This document shows positions 24,045 to 38,048 of a stretch of 64,000 bases of DNA, in pieces. Source of the stretch: Tritonibacter mobilis (GTDB lineage: Bacteria > Pseudomonadota > Alphaproteobacteria > Rhodobacterales > Rhodobacteraceae); contig NZ_LNWY01000015.1 of NCBI RefSeq assembly GCF_001681715.1, positions 1 to 64,000 of the forward strand, given 5' to 3'. Within the stretch, counting starts at the first letter, position 1. Each line of letters begins with the position of its first letter. The position numbers were made by a program, and so were the translations under genes. The notes under the pieces were generated by a model that searched no databases, was not told the origin of the DNA, and was given only the letters and a program-made list of their open reading frames with translations.

Positions 24045-25469
24045 ATGATCCTTGAACAGTTCAAAACGGCGATCAAACACACAGCGGATGCGGGGGAGCT
24101 TGCTCAGGCGCTGATCGGCGAGGGGGTGATGATCCCCGGTCTCAACGGCGATGTGCCGCTGGTCTATGCGGATTACGTGGCCTCGGGGCGTGCGATGCGC
24201 CCGGTCGAAGCGTTCATTTCCGAAAAACTGCTGCCGTTTTATGCCAATTCCCACACCGAGGCCTCCTATTGCGGTCAGTATGTCACCCGCCTGCGCCGCG
24301 AAGCCCGGGCCGAGATTGCGCGGCTGACGGGTGCGGCGGACGACTGCGAGGTGATCTTTGCAGGCTCCGGTGCCACCGCGGGTTTGAACCGGTTGGTGAA
24401 GCTTTTGGGGATCGAGGAGGCGACGCGCCCGGTGGTGTTCATCGGCCCCTATGAGCATCACTCCAATATTCTGCCGTGGCGCGAGAGTCGCGCCGAGGTG
24501 GTGGAAATTCCCGAAGGCACCGAGGGCGGGGTCGATCTGGTGGCGCTTGAGGCGGCCTTGGTTGCGCATGCGGATGCAGATCTGAAAATCGGCAGTTTCT
24601 CGGCGGCCTCAAATGTGACCGGGATTATCACCGATCCCGATCCGGTGACCCGGCTGTTGCGCACGCACGGCGCACTTGCGGTTTGGGACTATGCCGGTGG
24701 CGGGCCTTATCTGCCCATCGACATGGGCGCGCATGGGGCGGAGCCAAAGGACGCCGTTGTGGTCTCGCCGCATAAGTTTCCGGGCGGGCCGGGGGCGTCG
24801 GGCGTGCTGGTGCTGCGCCGGGATGCGGTACGCGCGCGAAACCCTTCGTGGCCCGGGGGCGGCACGGTGAGTTTCGTGTCGCCGTGGTCGCATCGCTATG
24901 CGGACAGTCTGGCCGCGCGCGAGGAGGCGGGCACTCCGAATGTGGTGGGTGACATCCGCGCGGCGCTTGCGTTCCTGGTCAAGGAGGCCGTGGGGCAGGA
25001 CCACATTGAGGCGCGCGAAGCCCGCTATGCGGCCAAGGCACGGGCGGCTTGGGCGAATGTGCCGGGGCTGACGCTTCTGGGGCATGAGAGCGCCCATCGC
25101 TTGCCGATCTTTTCCTTCACCGTGGACGGGGCATCCGGCGCGCCGGTGCATCAGCAGTTGTTTACGCGCATGTTGAGCGATGTCTACGGCATTCAGGCGC
25201 GCGGCGGTTGTGCTTGCGCGGGGCCTTATGCGCACCGCCTGCTGGAGATCGACCAGCCACAATCCGAGGCTCTGCTTGGCGATCTTCTGGCCGGGCGGGA
25301 GTTGCAAAAACCCGGTTGGGTGCGGCTCAACTTCTCTTATCTGATGGAGGAGGCGACCGTGGACTATGTGATCGAGAGCGTTGCAAAGCTGGTGGCAGAG
25401 GCCGAAGAAATCGCTGCCGCCTATGATGCCGACCCGAGCACCGCACGCTTCCAGCCGCGTGCGGCTTGA
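24045..25469 (+). CDS. Class V aminotransferase (cysteine desulfurase/selenocysteine lyase-like)
   Basis: The 474-aa PLP enzyme has 'YADYVASGRAMRPVEAFI' and 'HTEASYCGQYVTRLRREAR' at the N-terminus, 'IFAGSGATAGLNRLVK' binding the cofactor phosphate, and Lys244 in 'VVVSPHKFPGGPGASGVLV' as the Schiff-base residue. 'GIQARGGCACAGPYAHR' resembles the NifS/SufS active-site cysteine loop, so desulfurase activity is possible. It is longer than SufS (about 405 aa) and lies apart from any suf genes. It is divergent from an Lrp-type regulator, which suggests an amino-acid-responsive role. Confidence 0.87.
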   Translation: MILEQFKTAIKHTADAGELAQALIGEGVMIPGLNGDVPLVYADYVASGRAMRPVEAFISEKLLPFYANSHTEASYCGQYVTRLRREARAEIARLTGAADDCEVIFAGSGATAGLNRLVKLLGIEEATRPVVFIGPYEHHSNILPWRESRAEVVEIPEGTEGGVDLVALEAALVAHADADLKIGSFSAASNVTGIITDPDPVTRLLRTHGALAVWDYAGGGPYLPIDMGAHGAEPKDAVVVSPHKFPGGPGASGVLVLRRDAVRARNPSWPGGGTVSFVSPWSHRYADSLAAREEAGTPNVVGDIRAALAFLVKEAVGQDHIEAREARYAAKARAAWANVPGLTLLGHESAHRLPIFSFTVDGASGAPVHQQLFTRMLSDVYGIQARGGCACAGPYAHRLLEIDQPQSEALLGDLLAGRELQKPGWVRLNFSYLMEEATVDYVIESVAKLVAEAEEIAAAYDADPSTARFQPRAA

Positions 25470-25835
25470 TCCCTCAGTATAATCTATGAACGGACGTTGT
25501 GATTGAGGTGTTTCGCCTCGGGCTTTGCCCGAGGCGACCCGCGCCGCGTGCCCTTTGGGCACGCGGCGCGGCCCGGCCCAACGGGAGGATGTGCTCTGCT
25601 GCGGTGGATCTGCCAGATCCGGGACAGGCGCAAAAATGGGGGTCATGTGTGGCGTGGACGTGGCCAAAGGGGCACGGACGACGGGCGGGAGCCTCCCCGG
25701 GCGAGCGAGGTGTGCGTGCTCTGGCAGCGACAGGCGGCCCCATAGGTGTGTTGATGAAGCATTGAGGACAGTTGCGGCTTTTCCCATCGCGCCGAGGGCG
25801 CTATGACGAACAGGTTCGCGAAGGAGCTCAACGAT
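25470..25835. other. Intergenic hairpin-rich region upstream of hisC
   Basis: A gap of about 365 nt, largely GC-rich inverted repeats at its left end (25514-25570). Open frames in both strands across it are by-products of the repeats. AAGGAG precedes the hisC ATG at 25836. Confidence 0.5.
25514..25570. repeat. Two adjacent perfect GC-rich hairpins
   Basis: CGCCTCGGGC (25514-25523) pairs with GCCCGAGGCG (25527-25536), and a 14-base arm at 25540-25553 pairs perfectly with 25557-25570; both have a TTT loop. A possibly related cluster lies at 28861-28914, with a similar flank (CCCAACGGG... here, CCCAACGCGGGG... there). Confidence 0.75.
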
Positions 25836-26924
25836 ATGACCCAAATCACACCGCAACCCGGTATCATGGACATCGCCCTCTATCAGGGTGGCGCAGCCCA
25901 TGTGGACGGGGTGAGCAATGTGACCAAGCTCTCCTCCAATGAGAACCCGCTGGGCGCAAGCCCCAGGGCGGTGGAGGCGATGGCGCAGGCTGTCACCAGC
26001 ATGCATCGGTATCCGAGCTCCGACCATATCGCCCTGCGCACCGCCATTGCCGAAACCCACGGGCTGGATGCTGAACGCATCATCTGCGGGGCGGGCAGCG
26101 ATGAGATCATCGCTTTTCTGTGTCAGTGCTATGCCGGGCCGGGGGATGAGGTGCTTTATACCGAGCACGGGTTTGCCATGTATCGCATTTCCGCCCTTGC
26201 CGCCGGGGCCACCCCGGTCGAAGTGAAGGAGCGCGAGCGCGTCACCGATGTGGATGCGCTGCTGGCAGGCTGCACGCCGCAGACCAAGCTGGTGTTCATC
26301 GCCAACCCCAACAACCCCACTGGCACCATGATTTCCGAGGCCGAGGTGGCGCGCCTTGCCGATGGTATCCCGGAGGATGCGATCCTCGTGCTGGATGGGG
26401 CCTACGCTGAGTATGTCGAGGGCTTTGACGCCGGTGCAAGCCTCATCGAGGCGCGTGAAAACGTGGTGATGACCCGCACGTTCTCCAAGATCTACGGACT
26501 GGGGGGCGCGCGTGTGGGCTGGGGCTATGGGCCAAAGCCGATCATCGACGTACTCAATCGTGTACGCGGGCCGTTCAATGTCTCGGTGACGGCGCTTGCC
26601 GGGGCCGAGGCCGCGGTGCGGGATCGTGCGTATGTCGAAACCTGCCGCGTCGAGAACGCCAAATGGCGCGGCTGGCTGGCGGATCAACTGGCCGGGCTGG
26701 GCGTGCCGTCGGACACATCCTGTACCAACTTCATTCTGGCGCGCTTTGCCTCCCAAGCGGAAGCGGAAGCCTGTGACGATTTCCTGAAACAACGCGGCCT
26801 GATCGTGCGCCGGGTGGCGGGGTATAACCTGCCCACCGCCTTGCGGATCACTGTCGGAGACGAGACCGCATGCCGTGCGGTTGCAAGCGCGGTCAAGGAC
26901 TTCAAGGCCGGGGCGGCACAATGA
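25836..26924 (+). CDS. hisC: Histidinol-phosphate/aromatic aminotransferase
   Basis: The 362-aa class I PLP aminotransferase has '[17 protein letters not shown]' at the N-terminus, '[15 protein letters not shown]', and Lys218 in '[17 protein letters not shown]' as the cofactor lysine. HisC-type enzymes transaminate histidinol phosphate and also aromatic amino acids. Here the gene overlaps by 4 nt (ATGA) with a prephenate-dehydrogenase-type gene, so a role in tyrosine/phenylalanine synthesis is at least as likely as one in histidine synthesis. The start at 25836 has AAGGAG 9 nt upstream; an upstream in-frame ATG at 25803 is less likely. Confidence 0.92.
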
Positions 26925-30069: not shown

Positions 30070-30597
30070 ATGACGATGTGGGTATTTGGATACGGCTCTC
30101 TTCTGTGGAACCCGGAGTTCCCGATCGCGCAAAGCGAAGTGGCAACGCTGCATGGTTTTGCCCGCTCGTTCTGCATGCGCTCGATCCACCACCGCGGCAG
30201 CGAAGAGATCCCCGGACTGGTGCTGGCGCTGGATGCGCAAGAAGATGCCCATTGCAAGGGGCTGGCCCTGCGGGTCGAACCCGGCCACGAGGAGGCAACG
30301 CTGGCTGCGCTGCGCGAACGTGAGTTGATTTCCTCGGCCTATGTGGAGCGCTTTCTCGATGTGGAACTGGCCAGCGGTGAGGTGGTGAATGCGGTGGTCT
30401 ATGTAATCGACCCGCATCACGTCCAATATTGCCATCTGGAGCTGGAAGAGCAGGCGCGGATCATCGCCCATGCGGTAGGCGGACGGGGGCCGAACAGCGA
30501 ATATCTGTTCAATACCGCAGGGCATCTGGATGAAATCGGCCTGAGCGATCCTGACCTCAGCTGGCTGACAGAGCGGGTCCGGCAGATTTTGTCATAA
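30070..30597 (+). CDS. chaC: Glutathione-specific gamma-glutamylcyclotransferase (ChaC type)
   Basis: The 175-aa protein has the GGCT-fold glycine loop 'FGYGSLLWNPEFP' (6-18) and 'LRERELISSAY' with Glu85 as the likely general acid/base. 'FCMRSIHHRGSEEIPGLVLA' is typical of the ChaC family. The enzyme cleaves glutathione into 5-oxoproline and Cys-Gly in the cytosol. AAAGGA lies 9 nt before the ATG at 30070; a second ATG at 30076 also fits. It is divergent from the DUF2125 gene, with the stator-like gene pair downstream. Confidence 0.9.
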   Translation: MTMWVFGYGSLLWNPEFPIAQSEVATLHGFARSFCMRSIHHRGSEEIPGLVLALDAQEDAHCKGLALRVEPGHEEATLAALRERELISSAYVERFLDVELASGEVVNAVVYVIDPHHVQYCHLELEEQARIIAHAVGGRGPNSEYLFNTAGHLDEIGLSDPDLSWLTERVRQILS

Positions 30598-30675: not shown

Positions 30676-31866
30676 ATGGCGCATCACGAACGCGAAGGCC
30701 GGCCACAATTTTCACAGCCGGTGCGCCAGGTTGTCATGATGCTGATTGCATTGGGACTGGCAGGCGCGGGGGCCTTTATGGCGTTGCCTCGGGTGATGCC
30801 GGTCTTTGAGGCGAACCCCTATCTCAACGGGTTTATCGCCTTTGTGTTTGTGATCGGGGTGTTGGCGACCTTCTGGCAGGTGGTGCAGCTGATCAATTCG
30901 GTGCGCTGGATCGAACGCTTTGCCGCCGGGATCACCACGGATGATGATCGTGCGCCCTCGATGCTGGCGCCATTGGCGGCGCTGTTGCGCTCTCGGGGCG
31001 CGCGGATGCAACTTGGGTCTGCCTCGACACGCTCCATTCTGGATTCCGTGGCAGAACGCATTGACGAGGAGCGCGAGATCACGCGCTACATCGTCAACCT
31101 TTTGATTTTCCTTGGCCTTCTTGGCACGTTTTACGGGTTGGCGACCACGGTTCCGGCGGTGGTCGACACCATCCGCAGCCTAGCACCGCAGGATGGCGAA
31201 GAGGGGGTTGCGATCTTCAACCGGCTGATGACCGGCCTTGAATCGCAGTTGGGCGGCATGGGCGTGGCCTTTGCCTCCTCGCTTCTTGGTCTTGCGGGCT
31301 CATTGATCGTGGGCTTGCTGGAGCTGTTTGCGGGCCATGGTCAGAACCGGTTTTACCGCGAGCTCGAAGAATGGCTGTCGTCTTTCACCCGTGTCAGTTT
31401 TTCCTCGGGCGAGGAGGGCGGCACTGGCGACAGCAACCTTGTGGCTGGTGTGCTCGATACGATGGCCGAGCAGATGGACGCGCTGCAGGCGATGTTTGTT
31501 CAAACCGCCGAGGGGCGCGCGGAGGTTGAGGGCAAGCTCTCGCGTCTGATCGACACCATCGAAGAGATGAACCGTCGTCAGGATGATGTGGCGTCGATTT
31601 CCGGCGCATTGGAGCGCGTGGCCGTCGGCCAAGAGACCATTGCCGAGCTGATGCGCGCGCATGGGGATGTGGGCATTGATGCCGAAAGCCGCATGCGGCT
31701 GCGCTCGATTGATGTGCAGATGCTGCGCATTCTGGAAGAAATCTCCGCCGGGCGGCAGGAGAGCCTTGCGGAGTTGCGCAAGGATATCGACCTCTTGGTC
31801 AAAGCCTTTGCAGGCCCGCGTGGCATGGACCGTGCAGCGCGAATGGCGGCGCGGAAAGAGAGCTGA
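30676..31866 (+). CDS. MotA/TolQ/ExbB-family proton channel subunit
   Basis: The 396-aa protein has about four transmembrane helices: 18-38 ('VVMMLIALGLAGAGAFMALP'), 49-71 ('LNGFIAFVFVIGVLATFWQV'), about 137-162 ('LLIFLGLLGTFYGLATTVPA') and about 193-216 ('MGVAFASSLLGLAGSLIVGL'). The last two are the MotA/TolQ pore helices, with their Thr- and Gly-rich faces. The C-terminal part (about 240-385) is cytoplasmic and helical, with probable coiled coil ('LDTMAEQMDALQAMFVQTAE'). AGCCGCAAGGA precedes the ATG. The stop lies 3 nt before the MotB-like partner, so they form one unit. The family makes pentamers around a dimer of the partner and couples ion flow to torque or force. The physiological output is unknown. 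Confidence 0.85.
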   Translation: MAHHEREGRPQFSQPVRQVVMMLIALGLAGAGAFMALPRVMPVFEANPYLNGFIAFVFVIGVLATFWQVVQLINSVRWIERFAAGITTDDDRAPSMLAPLAALLRSRGARMQLGSASTRSILDSVAERIDEEREITRYIVNLLIFLGLLGTFYGLATTVPAVVDTIRSLAPQDGEEGVAIFNRLMTGLESQLGGMGVAFASSLLGLAGSLIVGLLELFAGHGQNRFYRELEEWLSSFTRVSFSSGEEGGTGDSNLVAGVLDTMAEQMDALQAMFVQTAEGRAEVEGKLSRLIDTIEEMNRRQDDVASISGALERVAVGQETIAELMRAHGDVGIDAESRMRLRSIDVQMLRILEEISAGRQESLAELRKDIDLLVKAFAGPRGMDRAARMAARKES

Positions 31867-31869
31867 TCC

Positions 31870-34224
31870 ATGGCCCTGAAGCGCCGTACCGGTCAACGTT
31901 TCCAAGGGTCCATCTGGCCCGGCTTTGTGGATGCGATGACCGGGCTTTTGCTGGTTCTGATGTTTGTGCTGACCATTTTTATGGTGGTGCAATTTGTCCT
32001 GCGCGAGACGATCTCCGGTCAGGAAACCGAACTGGATGAGCTCTCGACCGAGGTGCGGGCGTTGGCGCGGGCGCTTGGCGTCAAAGAGCGCGAGGCCAGC
32101 CAGTTGCAGGCCCGTTTGGGGGCGCTTGGGGCGACACTGAATTCGGCCCGTTCCGATCTGGACGCAGCGCAGGATCAGATCACGGCCCAACAAGCCCGCA
32201 TCAGCGCGCTGACGCAGGAACGGGACGCGGCGACCTCGGATCTTGCGGCGGCACGCACGCAGATTTCCGATTTTGAGGCACAGGTGACCGCATTGATTGC
32301 CGGGCGCGACAGTGCCGAGGCGCAGATCGCCGATCTCACGGCAGAGCGCGACGCGCTGGATGCCGCACGCGGTGAACTCTTGTCGGAACAAGAGGCGCTG
32401 AACCTCGCATTGGCGCAATTGCGCGATGAGGTCGACGCAGAGGCGGAGGCCGCACGTCTGGCGGCGGCACGCACCGAAGCTCTGCAAGCGCTGGTCGCGG
32501 ATCTGCGCAAGGAGGGCGAGGCGCAATCCGCCCGCGTGGCAGAACTGGAAGAGACGCTCTCTGAAGAAGAGGCCAATCGTCTGACTGAGGCTGCAGCGGC
32601 TGAAGCCTTGCGCGCGCGGCTGGAGAATGCCGATGCTGAACTCACGGCGATGACGCTGTCGCTGGAGGCAGAGCGCAAGAAAGCCGAAGATACGCTGACA
32701 TTGCTGGCCGCTGCCGAAAGCGCCCGAAATAAGCTGAATTCCGAACTGGAAGACGCGCTCTCGGCCATTGAAGAGGCCAAGGCGCAGGCAAATGACCGCG
32801 ATGAGCTGGCAGAGCGCCTGACGCGGGTGCTGGCCCAGATGGAAGTCACCGAGAGCACTGCATCGGCGCGCGTTTTGGCCCTCGAGGCAGAGCTGGACCG
32901 GGTGCGGACCGAGAGTGCCGCGACCCGCGCCCGACTCACCGGCGAGTTGGAGACCGCCCGTCAACAGGCCGCAGACACCCGTGGGCAGCTTGAGGCTGAA
33001 CTGACCCGGCAACAGGCGGCCACGGTCGAAACCGAGAGCCAATATCAGGCCCAGTTGCGCGATGTGCAGAGCGCTTTTGACAAGGAACGCCGCCTTCTGG
33101 AGGATCGCCTTGCCAGCCTGCAAGCGGAGGCGGAAACCACACGGCGCGACCTGCAGGATCAGCTTGCGACCCTGCGTGGTCAGGCCCAGGAAACCCGCAG
33201 CGGTCTGGAGACCCGTCTTGCGCGTGCCGAGGCAGATCTGGCTGCAGCACGCGCGGCGGCAAGCTCCACCGCAGAGGAACGGGCTTCGGTCGAGCAGCGC
33301 TTGTTGGTCGCGCTGGAGGCGCTGGAACGGGCGCAGGCGGCGGCCACGGATCAGGAGGTTTTGCAAAGCCGCCTTCTGGCCGCCCTCGCGGAGAAGGATG
33401 ATTTTGCGCAAAACCTCACCGAGCAGAAAACCCTTGCGGAACAGCGCGCGGATCTGCTGGCACAGGCGCGCAGTGCCTTGGCCGAGGAAAAGCAGGTCTC
33501 GGAAGAGGCGCGCCGCGAGACGGCGCTTTTGAATCAGCAGGTGGCGGCGTTGCGCGAACAGCTTGGCGGTTTGCAGGCCCTCTTGGGTGATTTCAAGGAA
33601 CGCGACGCTGCGCAGGGCATCCAGTTGCAAAGCCTCGGTCAGGATCTGAACACTGCGCTGGCACGCGCAGCCGCCGAAGAGCGCCGCCGCCGGATACTGG
33701 AAGAGCAGGAACGCAAGCGGCTGGAGGCGGAGCGGGAGCGGCTCGCCAATGAAGCCAAGGATCTGGAACAGTACCGTTCGGAGTTTTTTGGCCAGTTGCG
33801 CAGCCTTCTGGGCGATCAGGAAGGGGTGCGGATTGAGGGGGACCGGTTTGTCTTTGCCTCGGAGGTGTTGTTTGCACTGGGAAGCGCCGAACTCTCTGAG
33901 GCGGGAAAGACCGAAATCGCCAAAGTCGCGCGCATCTTGCAAAACGTGGCTGCCGCGATTCCCGATGACATCAACTGGATCATTCGCGTCGATGGGCACA
34001 CGGACAATCAGCGGTTTTCGGGCACTGGCAAATACGCCGATAACTGGGAACTCAGTCAGGGCAGGGCGCTGTCGGTGGTGCGCTACATGATGGATGAGCT
34101 GGGCATTCCCCCCGGACGGCTGGCCGCAAATGGATTTGGCGAATTTCAGCCGGTTAATCCGGCCGACACCCCCGAAGCGCGGGCGCAAAACCGCCGAATC
34201 GAATTGAAGCTTACGGAACGCTGA
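31870..34224 (+). CDS. MotB/OmpA-like stator subunit with giant periplasmic coiled coil
   Basis: The 784-aa protein has one N-terminal transmembrane helix (about 18-45) that begins 'WPGFVDAMTGLLLVLMFVLT'. Asp21 in the P-x-x-x-D context matches the proton-carrying Asp of MotB, TolR and ZorB. Residues about 46-630 are one long heptad-like helix rich in Ala, Glu, Arg, Gln and Leu (for example 'QARISALTQERDAATSDLAA'), predicted coiled coil. Residues about 640-784 are an OmpA/MotB peptidoglycan-binding domain ('RVDGHTDNQRFSGTGKYADN', 'LGIPPGRLAANGFGEFQPVN', 'NRRIELKL'). It is therefore a stator B subunit whose wall anchor is separated from the channel by about 600 residues. Ordinary MotB has a short linker of tens of residues. 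Confidence 0.85.
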   Translation: MALKRRTGQRFQGSIWPGFVDAMTGLLLVLMFVLTIFMVVQFVLRETISGQETELDELSTEVRALARALGVKEREASQLQARLGALGATLNSARSDLDAAQDQITAQQARISALTQERDAATSDLAAARTQISDFEAQVTALIAGRDSAEAQIADLTAERDALDAARGELLSEQEALNLALAQLRDEVDAEAEAARLAAARTEALQALVADLRKEGEAQSARVAELEETLSEEEANRLTEAAAAEALRARLENADAELTAMTLSLEAERKKAEDTLTLLAAAESARNKLNSELEDALSAIEEAKAQANDRDELAERLTRVLAQMEVTESTASARVLALEAELDRVRTESAATRARLTGELETARQQAADTRGQLEAELTRQQAATVETESQYQAQLRDVQSAFDKERRLLEDRLASLQAEAETTRRDLQDQLATLRGQAQETRSGLETRLARAEADLAAARAAASSTAEERASVEQRLLVALEALERAQAAATDQEVLQSRLLAALAEKDDFAQNLTEQKTLAEQRADLLAQARSALAEEKQVSEEARRETALLNQQVAALREQLGGLQALLGDFKERDAAQGIQLQSLGQDLNTALARAAAEERRRRILEEQERKRLEAERERLANEAKDLEQYRSEFFGQLRSLLGDQEGVRIEGDRFVFASEVLFALGSAELSEAGKTEIAKVARILQNVAAAIPDDINWIIRVDGHTDNQRFSGTGKYADNWELSQGRALSVVRYMMDELGIPPGRLAANGFGEFQPVNPADTPEARAQNRRIELKLTER

Positions 34225-34263
34225 CAGCGCGTGGCGCGTATTTGGTAAAACTACAATTAAATA

Positions 34264-34295
34264 AGGCTCCGGCGGTGTTTCAACCGCCAGAGCCT
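34264..34295 (+). terminator. Stem-loop after the stator-like genes
   Basis: AGGCTC-C-GGCGGT and ACCGCC-A-GAGCCT form an 11-12 bp stem with one mismatch and a 6-nt loop. There is no T-run directly after it, so it may be a factor-dependent or mRNA-protecting structure. Confidence 0.5.
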
Positions 34296-34493
34296 GCGTT
34301 CTAAAATAGGACTTTTGAAAACAGGACGGCACCACCACTCACGGCTTATTGGATTCGTCCGGGTTCTTTTTATCATAGTTTGCCCGTTTTTCCAATAAAT
34401 TATCACCCATGAGAGTTTTTTGTGCTATACTCTTCAGTACAAATTCGATTTACCGCCGCCATGTCTGTGAGCATCGTTTCAGGAGGGGCATTT

Positions 34494-35711: not shown

Positions 35712-38048
<2,337 letters not shown>

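Follow-up and report, generated by a model that had tools for sequence, protein, structure and literature searches.

The flagellar stators MotAB and PomAB combine a channel subunit with a partner that bears an Asp-bearing membrane helix, a plug, a glycine-rich linker and an OmpA domain. TolQR and ExbBD have the same channel-subunit fold with a GLxGT motif, and to our knowledge TolR and ExbD carry neither an OmpA domain nor a long coil. In the Zorya system, whose effectors are ZorC, ZorD and ZorE, the channel subunit ZorA has a helical cytoplasmic tail, and ZorB joins one Asp-bearing helix to a peptidoglycan-binding domain. Passages of PMC11890865 describe ZorAB as a 5:2 motor for which wall binding, the tail and ion flow are all important, and those of PMC12505986 group non-flagellar stator homologues as generic ion transporters (GIT), with B subunits lacking discernible OmpA homology. 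Here we analyse a window of 64,000 nucleotides (nt; the whole stretch of DNA under study) from the alphaproteobacterium Tritonibacter mobilis (contig NZ_LNWY01000015.1, positions 1 to 64,000), which encodes on its plus strand a stator-like pair, subunit A (30676-31866, 396 amino acids, aa) and subunit B (31870-34224, 784 aa), in the order and with the 3-nt spacer (31867-31869) that an earlier note on this DNA had given. By Pfam and NCBIfam, B joins a membrane helix, a long coil and an OmpA domain, and it is a full member of PRK09039 (NF006542; 956 bits against a curated cut-off of 388). This family is already known by name and is functionally blank: NF006542-NF006546 (“peptidoglycan -binding protein”) have no function, partner or length behaviour attached in the profile output. 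New here are the lengths of B, which range from 327 to 2363 aa across the family while both ends stay constant, and the change of coil length in whole heptads.

The membrane helix of B (residues 20-46, 31927-32007, from an AlphaFold2 (AF2) model and conservation) contains the stretch DAMTGLLL, of the DxMT type that we take to be the membrane-helix motif of MotB. Asp21 (codon 31930-31932) sits where this helix begins, and 194 of the 195 B proteins have it, the sole exception having its start called too late. At the opposite end lies the OmpA-like peptidoglycan-binding domain (residues 655-784, 33832-34221; Pfam match on residues 667-775, E 1.2e-18), in which Asp712 and Arg732, presumably the diaminopimelate-binding positions as in OmpA and Pal structures, are invariant in 50 alignment rows. 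The earlier note's MotB-like protein with one membrane helix, D21 and an OmpA domain is therefore borne out. Between these ends, residues 46-650 form a stretch of 605 residues without a single proline (21% Ala, 15% Leu, 14% Glu and 11% Arg), with a best hydrophobicity period of 3.49 at a power of 17.6; among 300 shuffles of all 605 residues the highest power was 10.2. The N-coil (residues 46-340, 32005-32889) keeps a single, near-unbroken heptad register, and its length changes by whole heptads among relatives; in the variable middle (residues 341-521, 32890-33432), likewise proline-free, conservation is poor and the register drifts from about 340 to 540 (local periods of 3.56-3.6, or 5.75 at 424-507), to become strong again at 508-591, within the C-coil (residues 522-650, 33433-33819). 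Single 84-residue windows across 172-297 and 424-549 score weakly, with a power of 4.8-6.6 and no shuffle baseline per window. Of the “about 585 continuous heptad-like residues” of the earlier note, the extent stands and the uniformity does not. Its expectation of a helical centre agrees with the AF2 model, in which this region is almost wholly helical at a low mean predicted local distance difference test score (pLDDT) of 69.5 and interrupted at 218-255, 463-467 and 573-591. As an α-helix rises by about 0.15 nm per residue, the coil would measure about 90 nm in the window, and about 20 and 320 nm in the shortest and longest homologues; in the window it far exceeds the width of the periplasm, as had been proposed.

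The comparison of relatives covered 195 B proteins: 58 from a class set (60 loci hand-picked from 197 matches among Alphaproteobacteria, mostly one per family), 136 from a family set (60 of 100 B-matched genomes of Rhodobacteraceae) and a named set (the best 80 of 586 named records, two of which, L208 and L216, bear other or broader labels than Rhodobacteraceae), and the one of the window. Around four of the 80 named loci no B was found in the DNA; L068 and L095, where the next open reading frame (ORF) has no OmpA domain, were excluded, L120 and L147 were left out of some landmark counts, and identical B proteins were counted once. Lengths run from 327 to 911 aa in the class set (median 433.5, n=58), from 435 to 2363 in the family set (median 722, n=60) and from 472 to 1157 in the named set (median 628, n=76), so that the unusually long coil is mainly found in Rhodobacteraceae. 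The coil itself spans from about 140 to 2170 nearly proline-free residues: 188 of the 195 proteins lack proline altogether from residue 51 up to the final 150 residues, and only 8 prolines occur in 86,801 middle residues, versus 1,445 in 29,250 C-terminal ones. Alignments show conserved N- and C-terminal blocks and an unconserved middle. The five PRK09039 models (342-627 positions) embrace this whole range, as the Sinorhizobium meliloti B (342 aa), the 327-aa B and the 2363-aa B each pass one of them. The longest B (L149:4683-11771) has the same ends, and the A protein at its locus has no Pfam match at 0.01.

Along much of the coil, length varies in whole heptads. Landmarks were placed by ungapped BLOSUM62 matching with a required margin over the second-best place, which replaced earlier regular-expression landmarks that caught 73, 66 and 129 of 137 proteins; over 133 distinct B proteins of Rhodobacteraceae, landmark 172-206 was found in 128 and landmark 536-570 in 127. 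Landmark 172-206 lies at 12 different distances from the membrane helix, and all 128 proteins fall in one class modulo 7; for landmark 242-276 there are 31 lengths, with 126 of 133 proteins in one class, or 25 of 31 when each length is counted once (P 1.6e-15, uncorrected for kinship). At the other end, the distance from landmark 536-570 of the C-coil to the OmpA domain takes five lengths, again in a single class (127/127). Moduli 5, 6 and 8-11 give no comparable share, only what repeated lengths give. In the other Alphaproteobacteria the lock extends from the membrane helix all the way to the OmpA domain, with 40 lengths and 42 of 58 proteins in one class; another 14 are 3 or 4 residues off this main phase, which brings the total to 56 of 58, and offsets of 3 or 4 residues are the classic stammer and stutter of coiled coils. 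Two controls showed no preferred class modulo 7, the tail of A (from its fourth transmembrane helix, TM4, to a conserved end motif; 64 and 50 proteins) and the proline-rich linker of C, a protein encoded upstream of A in other Alphaproteobacteria (24 of 51), both resting on regular-expression landmarks that catch part of each set. Judged from sequence, the coil thus behaves as a real continuous seam, nearly free in length and constrained in register, which in most of the class set runs the full length of the rod and in Rhodobacteraceae covers each half separately.

In the latter family, measuring all the way from membrane helix to OmpA domain leaves only 43 of 133 proteins sharing a class. As phase is lost between N-coil and C-coil, the shaft may be loosely jointed at that point; the variable middle may contain such a joint or accumulated stutters, and the drifting register at 340-540 is consistent with either. 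Among 29 reciprocal closest pairs, eight match exactly in span, and in 13 of the remaining 21 the difference is a multiple of 7; the share of nonzero whole-span differences that are multiples of 7 falls from 7/12 at 85% identity of A to 13/44 at 80%, 36/117 at 75% and 80/402 at 70%, a fading with distance that is expected if the middle drifts. The earlier note had argued that so long a helix must fold back, bundle or form an unusual tether. Folding back as an antiparallel hairpin of N-arm on C-arm was considered and rejected: the N-arm takes 31 values from 109 to 2037 (this last attributable only to the 2363-aa B, in which the motif may be relocated) and the C-arm five from 105 to 133, and arm lengths that vary independently make a whole-arm hairpin unlikely. 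Hairpins may still occur inside the variable middle. Passages of PMC8598163 describe a contrasting case, in which coil length is conserved and indels are depleted.

The A subunit was described by the earlier note as a four-helix protein of the MotA/TolQ type, and its 31-row alignment, AF2 model and fold matches agree with a channel protein of the MotA/TolQ/ExbB type with a helical cytoplasmic tail. The model (mean pLDDT 81.3) places helices at 16-46, 48-83, 115-168 and 177-243 and a helical tail at 253-379. Residues 115-243 (31018-31404), with the helices that bear TM3 and TM4, hold most of the invariant residues, among them the GLLGT motif with T151, present in 31 of 31 rows; the tail (31432-31812) varies in length without heptad phase lock and has a conserved LRSIDVQMLRILEEISAGRQE motif near its end. 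Pfam PF01618 (MotA_ExbB) gives the window A 16.6 bits (E 0.0066), below the gathering cut-off of 22.9, which the S. meliloti homologue clears with 23.9 bits. All 50 Foldseek rows shown are TolQ, ExbB, ZorA or MotA entries (probability 0.84-1.00), and in VIA the nearest solved folds are TolQ and ExbB, with a Z of 11.9 for TolQ over 191 residues (root-mean-square deviation 3.9). In sequence searches of solved structures, the rows shown for the full A profile were coiled coils aligned to the tail, and the channel part by itself gave one chance match (E 0.4). The closest named relatives among the best 80 of 586 records are from Tritonibacter (82%) and Leisingera (81%).

Probable homologues of the pair, by analogy of lengths and topology, have been studied in Komagataeibacter hansenii, a bacterium without flagella, in passages of PMC6570709. 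There, motA (348 aa, four transmembrane helices) and motB (321 aa, one transmembrane helix and an OmpA domain) are neighbouring genes, and this MotB is a short protein with 46-48% identity to alphaproteobacterial homologues. Overexpression of either gene gave longer cells, an about threefold colony spreading and looser cellulose, with yields raised by 6% and 20%, green fluorescent protein fusions were located at one or both cell poles, and the same treatment left E. coli unchanged; the authors interpret the phenotype as motility, and those passages report overexpression and no deletion. Because of these cell-length and pole phenotypes, the sole phenotypic lead on the family, we propose, with modest confidence, that the machine acts in envelope mechanics near poles or division. 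The open-access literature of PubMed Central, seen mostly as passages, gave no account of the family's coil, its length behaviour or the order C-A-B, and PMC5513736 and PMC10746277 do not mention MotA, ExbB, TolQ or OmpA. PMC9275681, in the passages at hand, deals with CenKR and tolQRAB and has a table with RSP_1880, a “peptidoglycan-binding domain-containing protein” and possibly a counterpart of B. The “uncharacterised machine” of the earlier note is therefore a stator-like pair, as it said, and is no oddity of one genome, being a named family found across Alphaproteobacteria with a probable K. hansenii homologue already overexpressed and imaged; its proton drive and envelope function we still infer.

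From parts whose adjacency, conservation, phase lock and gene order are read in the sequences themselves, we infer a 5:2 assembly, proton flow, a parallel dimer, force transmission and a cellular role, and on balance we lean towards a proton-driven, non-flagellar motor of the A5B2 type coupled to the wall through a coiled-coil shaft. Five A subunits would form a channel, inside which two Asp21-bearing B helices would relay protons; outside the membrane the two B chains would pair in parallel and in register as a coiled coil and continue into a dimer of OmpA domains clamped on the peptidoglycan, and the motor would act on the wall by way of this coil. Coil length would be nearly free, while the seam of the dimer must not break, so that length would evolve by the gain or loss of whole heptads. 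In most other sampled Alphaproteobacteria the secreted OmpA-like partner C would complete the machine, whose likely role would be envelope mechanics tied to cell poles or division. The phase lock would leave the azimuth of the far end unfixed, since added heptads also advance the supercoil. A wider proposal, which we hold to be less likely, is that of an unrecognised family of proton-driven envelope machines that stands apart from Mot, Tol, Ton and Zorya: an unbroken periplasmic coiled-coil shaft of about 20-320 nm carries torque or tension, a secreted OmpA-like partner takes part in most species outside Rhodobacteraceae, and length evolves in heptad quanta. Such a shaft would outstretch the width of the periplasm in many species; it would therefore lie along the wall, working at a distance like a torsion spring or winch.

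Many Alphaproteobacteria keep a stator-like machine for which we found no description as such in the open-access literature. A more than tenfold natural variation in length, with heptad phase mostly protected, offers a test of what the periplasmic segment of a stator does: a force-transmitting coil should accept inserted heptads and not insertions that break the phase, which would distinguish B subunits as shafts from B subunits as anchors in this superfamily. If the shaft is real, length evolution in heptad quanta would amount to a natural experiment in shaft mechanics.

Several observations weigh against a motor with a shaft. On the side of the channel, in TM4 the window A has Val197 where most relatives have Thr; its best Foldseek E is 1.9e-3 (probability 1.00), with none at or below 0.001; and its VIA score has unrelated helical bundles close behind it in the ranking, a designed one at Z 10.1. 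On the side of the coil, AF2 confidence is low across B and its model has breaks; the middle between N-coil and C-coil in Rhodobacteraceae takes 78 lengths in all seven phases, the commonest with 43 of 127 proteins; and at an A identity of at least 70% only 80 of 402 differences are multiples of 7, where chance alone would give 57. No A match was found in 92 of 289 class genomes (E 1e-10), and the orthology of the K. hansenii pair rests on published lengths, topology and a BLAST table in PMC6570709, whose authors, in the passages at hand, read their results as motility.

Some of these data would also suit a passive tether, in which A and B would be an ion channel or scaffold on a long leash and the coil would provide the dimer and reach without any mechanical work. 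The range of 327-2363 aa has no sign of a fixed reach, and a register that is not conserved between the two halves in Rhodobacteraceae is what one would expect if torque need not traverse the whole rod. However, a flexible leash has no need of a proline-free, heptad-locked sequence, most class-set B proteins keep their phase as far as the OmpA domain, and the channel-type residues Asp21 and T151 are conserved, all of which makes this explanation rather unlikely.

A Tol- or Zorya-like machine in disguise seems improbable to us, be it one that does a job of the TolQRA-Pal type at the pole or septum, or one that descends from, or acts in, Zorya phage defence. The likeness to Zorya lies in the outline of the two subunits and in partial PADLOC matches of A to ZorA1 (6.9e-10) and of B to ZorB3 (2.9e-22), from a library without shown cut-offs. 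In hhalign comparisons of small alignments A slightly prefers ZorA (E 8.1e-5, 61%) to TolQ (1.7e-4, 50%), both weakly, and in a tree it clusters with three ZorA, on branches too long to trust; the ZorA rows of both analyses are three matches of the profile PDLC00597, all of one genus. The K. hansenii phenotypes in those passages of PMC6570709 also involve cell length and poles. Against this, the long element of Zorya is cytoplasmic and belongs to A, whereas here it is periplasmic and belongs to B, and the NCBIfam model ZorA_4 gives A 17.2 bits against a cut-off of 500. The ZorA profiles PDLC00647 (E 1e-15) and PDLC00597 (E 1e-40) match 2 of 144 class genomes, neither with a clean ZorA, and 3 of 249 phylum genomes, all of one genus, the window genome being in neither group. 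The pair is mostly single-copy, in 197 of 289 class genomes, with conserved chromosomal neighbours upstream (chaC, or efp, an inositol-phosphatase-like gene and C) and no island; the two tested genes downstream of B have no match to a Zor effector at E 1 in PADLOC, no adjoining defence genes were found, and no tolA was seen adjoining the pair. B further differs from TolR in its OmpA domain, and the tolQRA genes of the window genome are encoded elsewhere. This genome holds five further PF01618 proteins, named by eye: a TolQ with TolR and TolA (L001), three ExbB-like sets and a MotA-like protein (L005). The clear OmpA domain of B also separates it from the GIT and makes it, beside ZorB, an exception to the statement on non-flagellar B subunits in the passages of PMC12505986.

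Less probable still is that lengths are heptad-quantised by mutation, through slippage or unequal exchange of heptad-like DNA repeats, and not by selection on a seam, the coil being a low-complexity expansion. Gaps between close relatives are indeed often of exactly 7, 14 or 28 residues, and among gaps of at least 5 residues in 18 hand-chosen pairs 46 of 60 are multiples of 7, a count in which the aligner may favour heptad shifts; yet slippage leaves the 188 proline-free middles of 195 unexplained, and the class-set lock (42/58) ties together landmarks that lie outside the coil. That the pair is an ordinary flagellar stator drifted from its operon, as its OmpA domain, its DxMT-type helix and the names given in the K. 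hansenii passages of PMC6570709 might suggest, is hardly credible, because B scores far below the MotB equivalog cut-offs (PRK06667, 72.8 versus 300; PRK07734, 63.7 versus 301), has a nearly proline-free coil instead of plug and glycine-rich linker, and is present (E at or below 1.7e-76) in all 10 of 41 family genomes that lack the weaker MotA-type band seen with PF01618 in the other 31, while the complete family genome G023 has that band and no A match and the window genome has its separate MotA-like protein. The homologues are thus neither ordinary flagellar stators nor TolQR, and the pair is distinct from the flagellar stator, TolQR, ExbBD and Zorya, as the earlier note had held.

The pair is widely kept, mostly in single copy and with conserved neighbours, and its anatomy is unusual. 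At E 1e-10 the A matches in the class are single-copy in all but four of the rows shown; at E 1e-6, 52 of the 199 genomes sampled across the phylum match A, including eight from outside the class, and A has no match in the eight listed genomes of one family (f11). Some genomes of only 0.7-1.1 million bases retain it. In one of 0.9 million bases, an A homologue with two in-frame stops (G156:C2:75975-76745) is an apparent pseudogene. B is matched in 100 of 100 family genomes, including that of the window, a few at the level of the OmpA domain only, and an OmpA-bearing B directly follows A in 119 of 121 loci. Matches also came from five plasmid records, large replicons of Sinorhizobium and Shinella, and none from phages.

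Outside Rhodobacteraceae, 51 of 60 class loci by cluster count have C on the strand of A and upstream of it, nearly always adjoining, with distances of 1,468 nt in L092 and 485 nt in L067. The protein has a signal-like N-terminus (by eye), a proline-rich linker and an OmpA-like C-terminal domain, which Pfam detects in the four C proteins scanned (1.6e-11, 5.9e-13, 9.8e-13 and 6.8e-7). Its start follows the consensus VxVNLxVLDxL in 20 aligned rows, and the strict pattern VxVNLxxLDxL occurs in 14 of 51. The HTD stretch of OmpA domains, presumably their wall-binding positions, reads AYA in C, which makes wall binding by this protein doubtful. An inositol-monophosphatase-like gene (52/60) and efp (44/60) lie farther upstream, both named by eye; these clusters are single-linkage and include shadow ORFs, and strict motif counts are lower (C 38/60, inositol-phosphatase-like 47/60, efp 21/60). 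From this arrangement, C is probably a third component of the machine in most other sampled Alphaproteobacteria. In S. meliloti, genes for thiamine phosphate synthase, a sel1-repeat protein and inositol monophosphatase lie upstream, with no C between. In the window genome the C profile gives two matches at E 0.01 (4.6e-6 and 2.8e-4), neither of them C: one is another OmpA lipoprotein-like protein and the other a Pal-like protein. A gain or loss of C along with coil length was considered and rejected, class-set B proteins with C (n=51, median 432) not differing from those without (n=7, 329-911; p 0.64). The B proteins of Rhodobacteraceae are longer than those of class loci with C (medians 676 versus 432), a contrast of one clade from which we draw no causal claim.

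In Rhodobacteraceae the place of C is occupied by chaC, a gamma-glutamylcyclotransferase gene identified by Pfam (30070-30597, plus strand, in the window), which is the usual upstream neighbour in this family, directly before A in 123 of 141 loci by a strict motif count, and for which we claim no functional link. In the window, a Pfam scan of the 5′ side found chaC, a DUF2125 gene and an extensin-like gene; on the 3′ side lie genes for a helix-turn-helix-like protein, a membrane protein that falls in no family and one of the ClpA type. Flagellar, Tol and defence genes were absent among the scanned neighbours (the upstream ones by Pfam only), in agreement with the earlier note. The 200-aa membrane-type protein at 34904-35506 matches nothing in Pfam, NCBIfam or PADLOC at E 1. 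Very long frames opposite other genes (24609-26921, 31300-34338 and 36237-37871) are probably not genes but by-products of high-GC codon usage. In other loci (L105, L109, L117 and others), a secreted protein, M23-like by eye, is encoded on the minus strand 3′ of B, and its motif occurs in 37 of the 141 Rhodobacteraceae loci.

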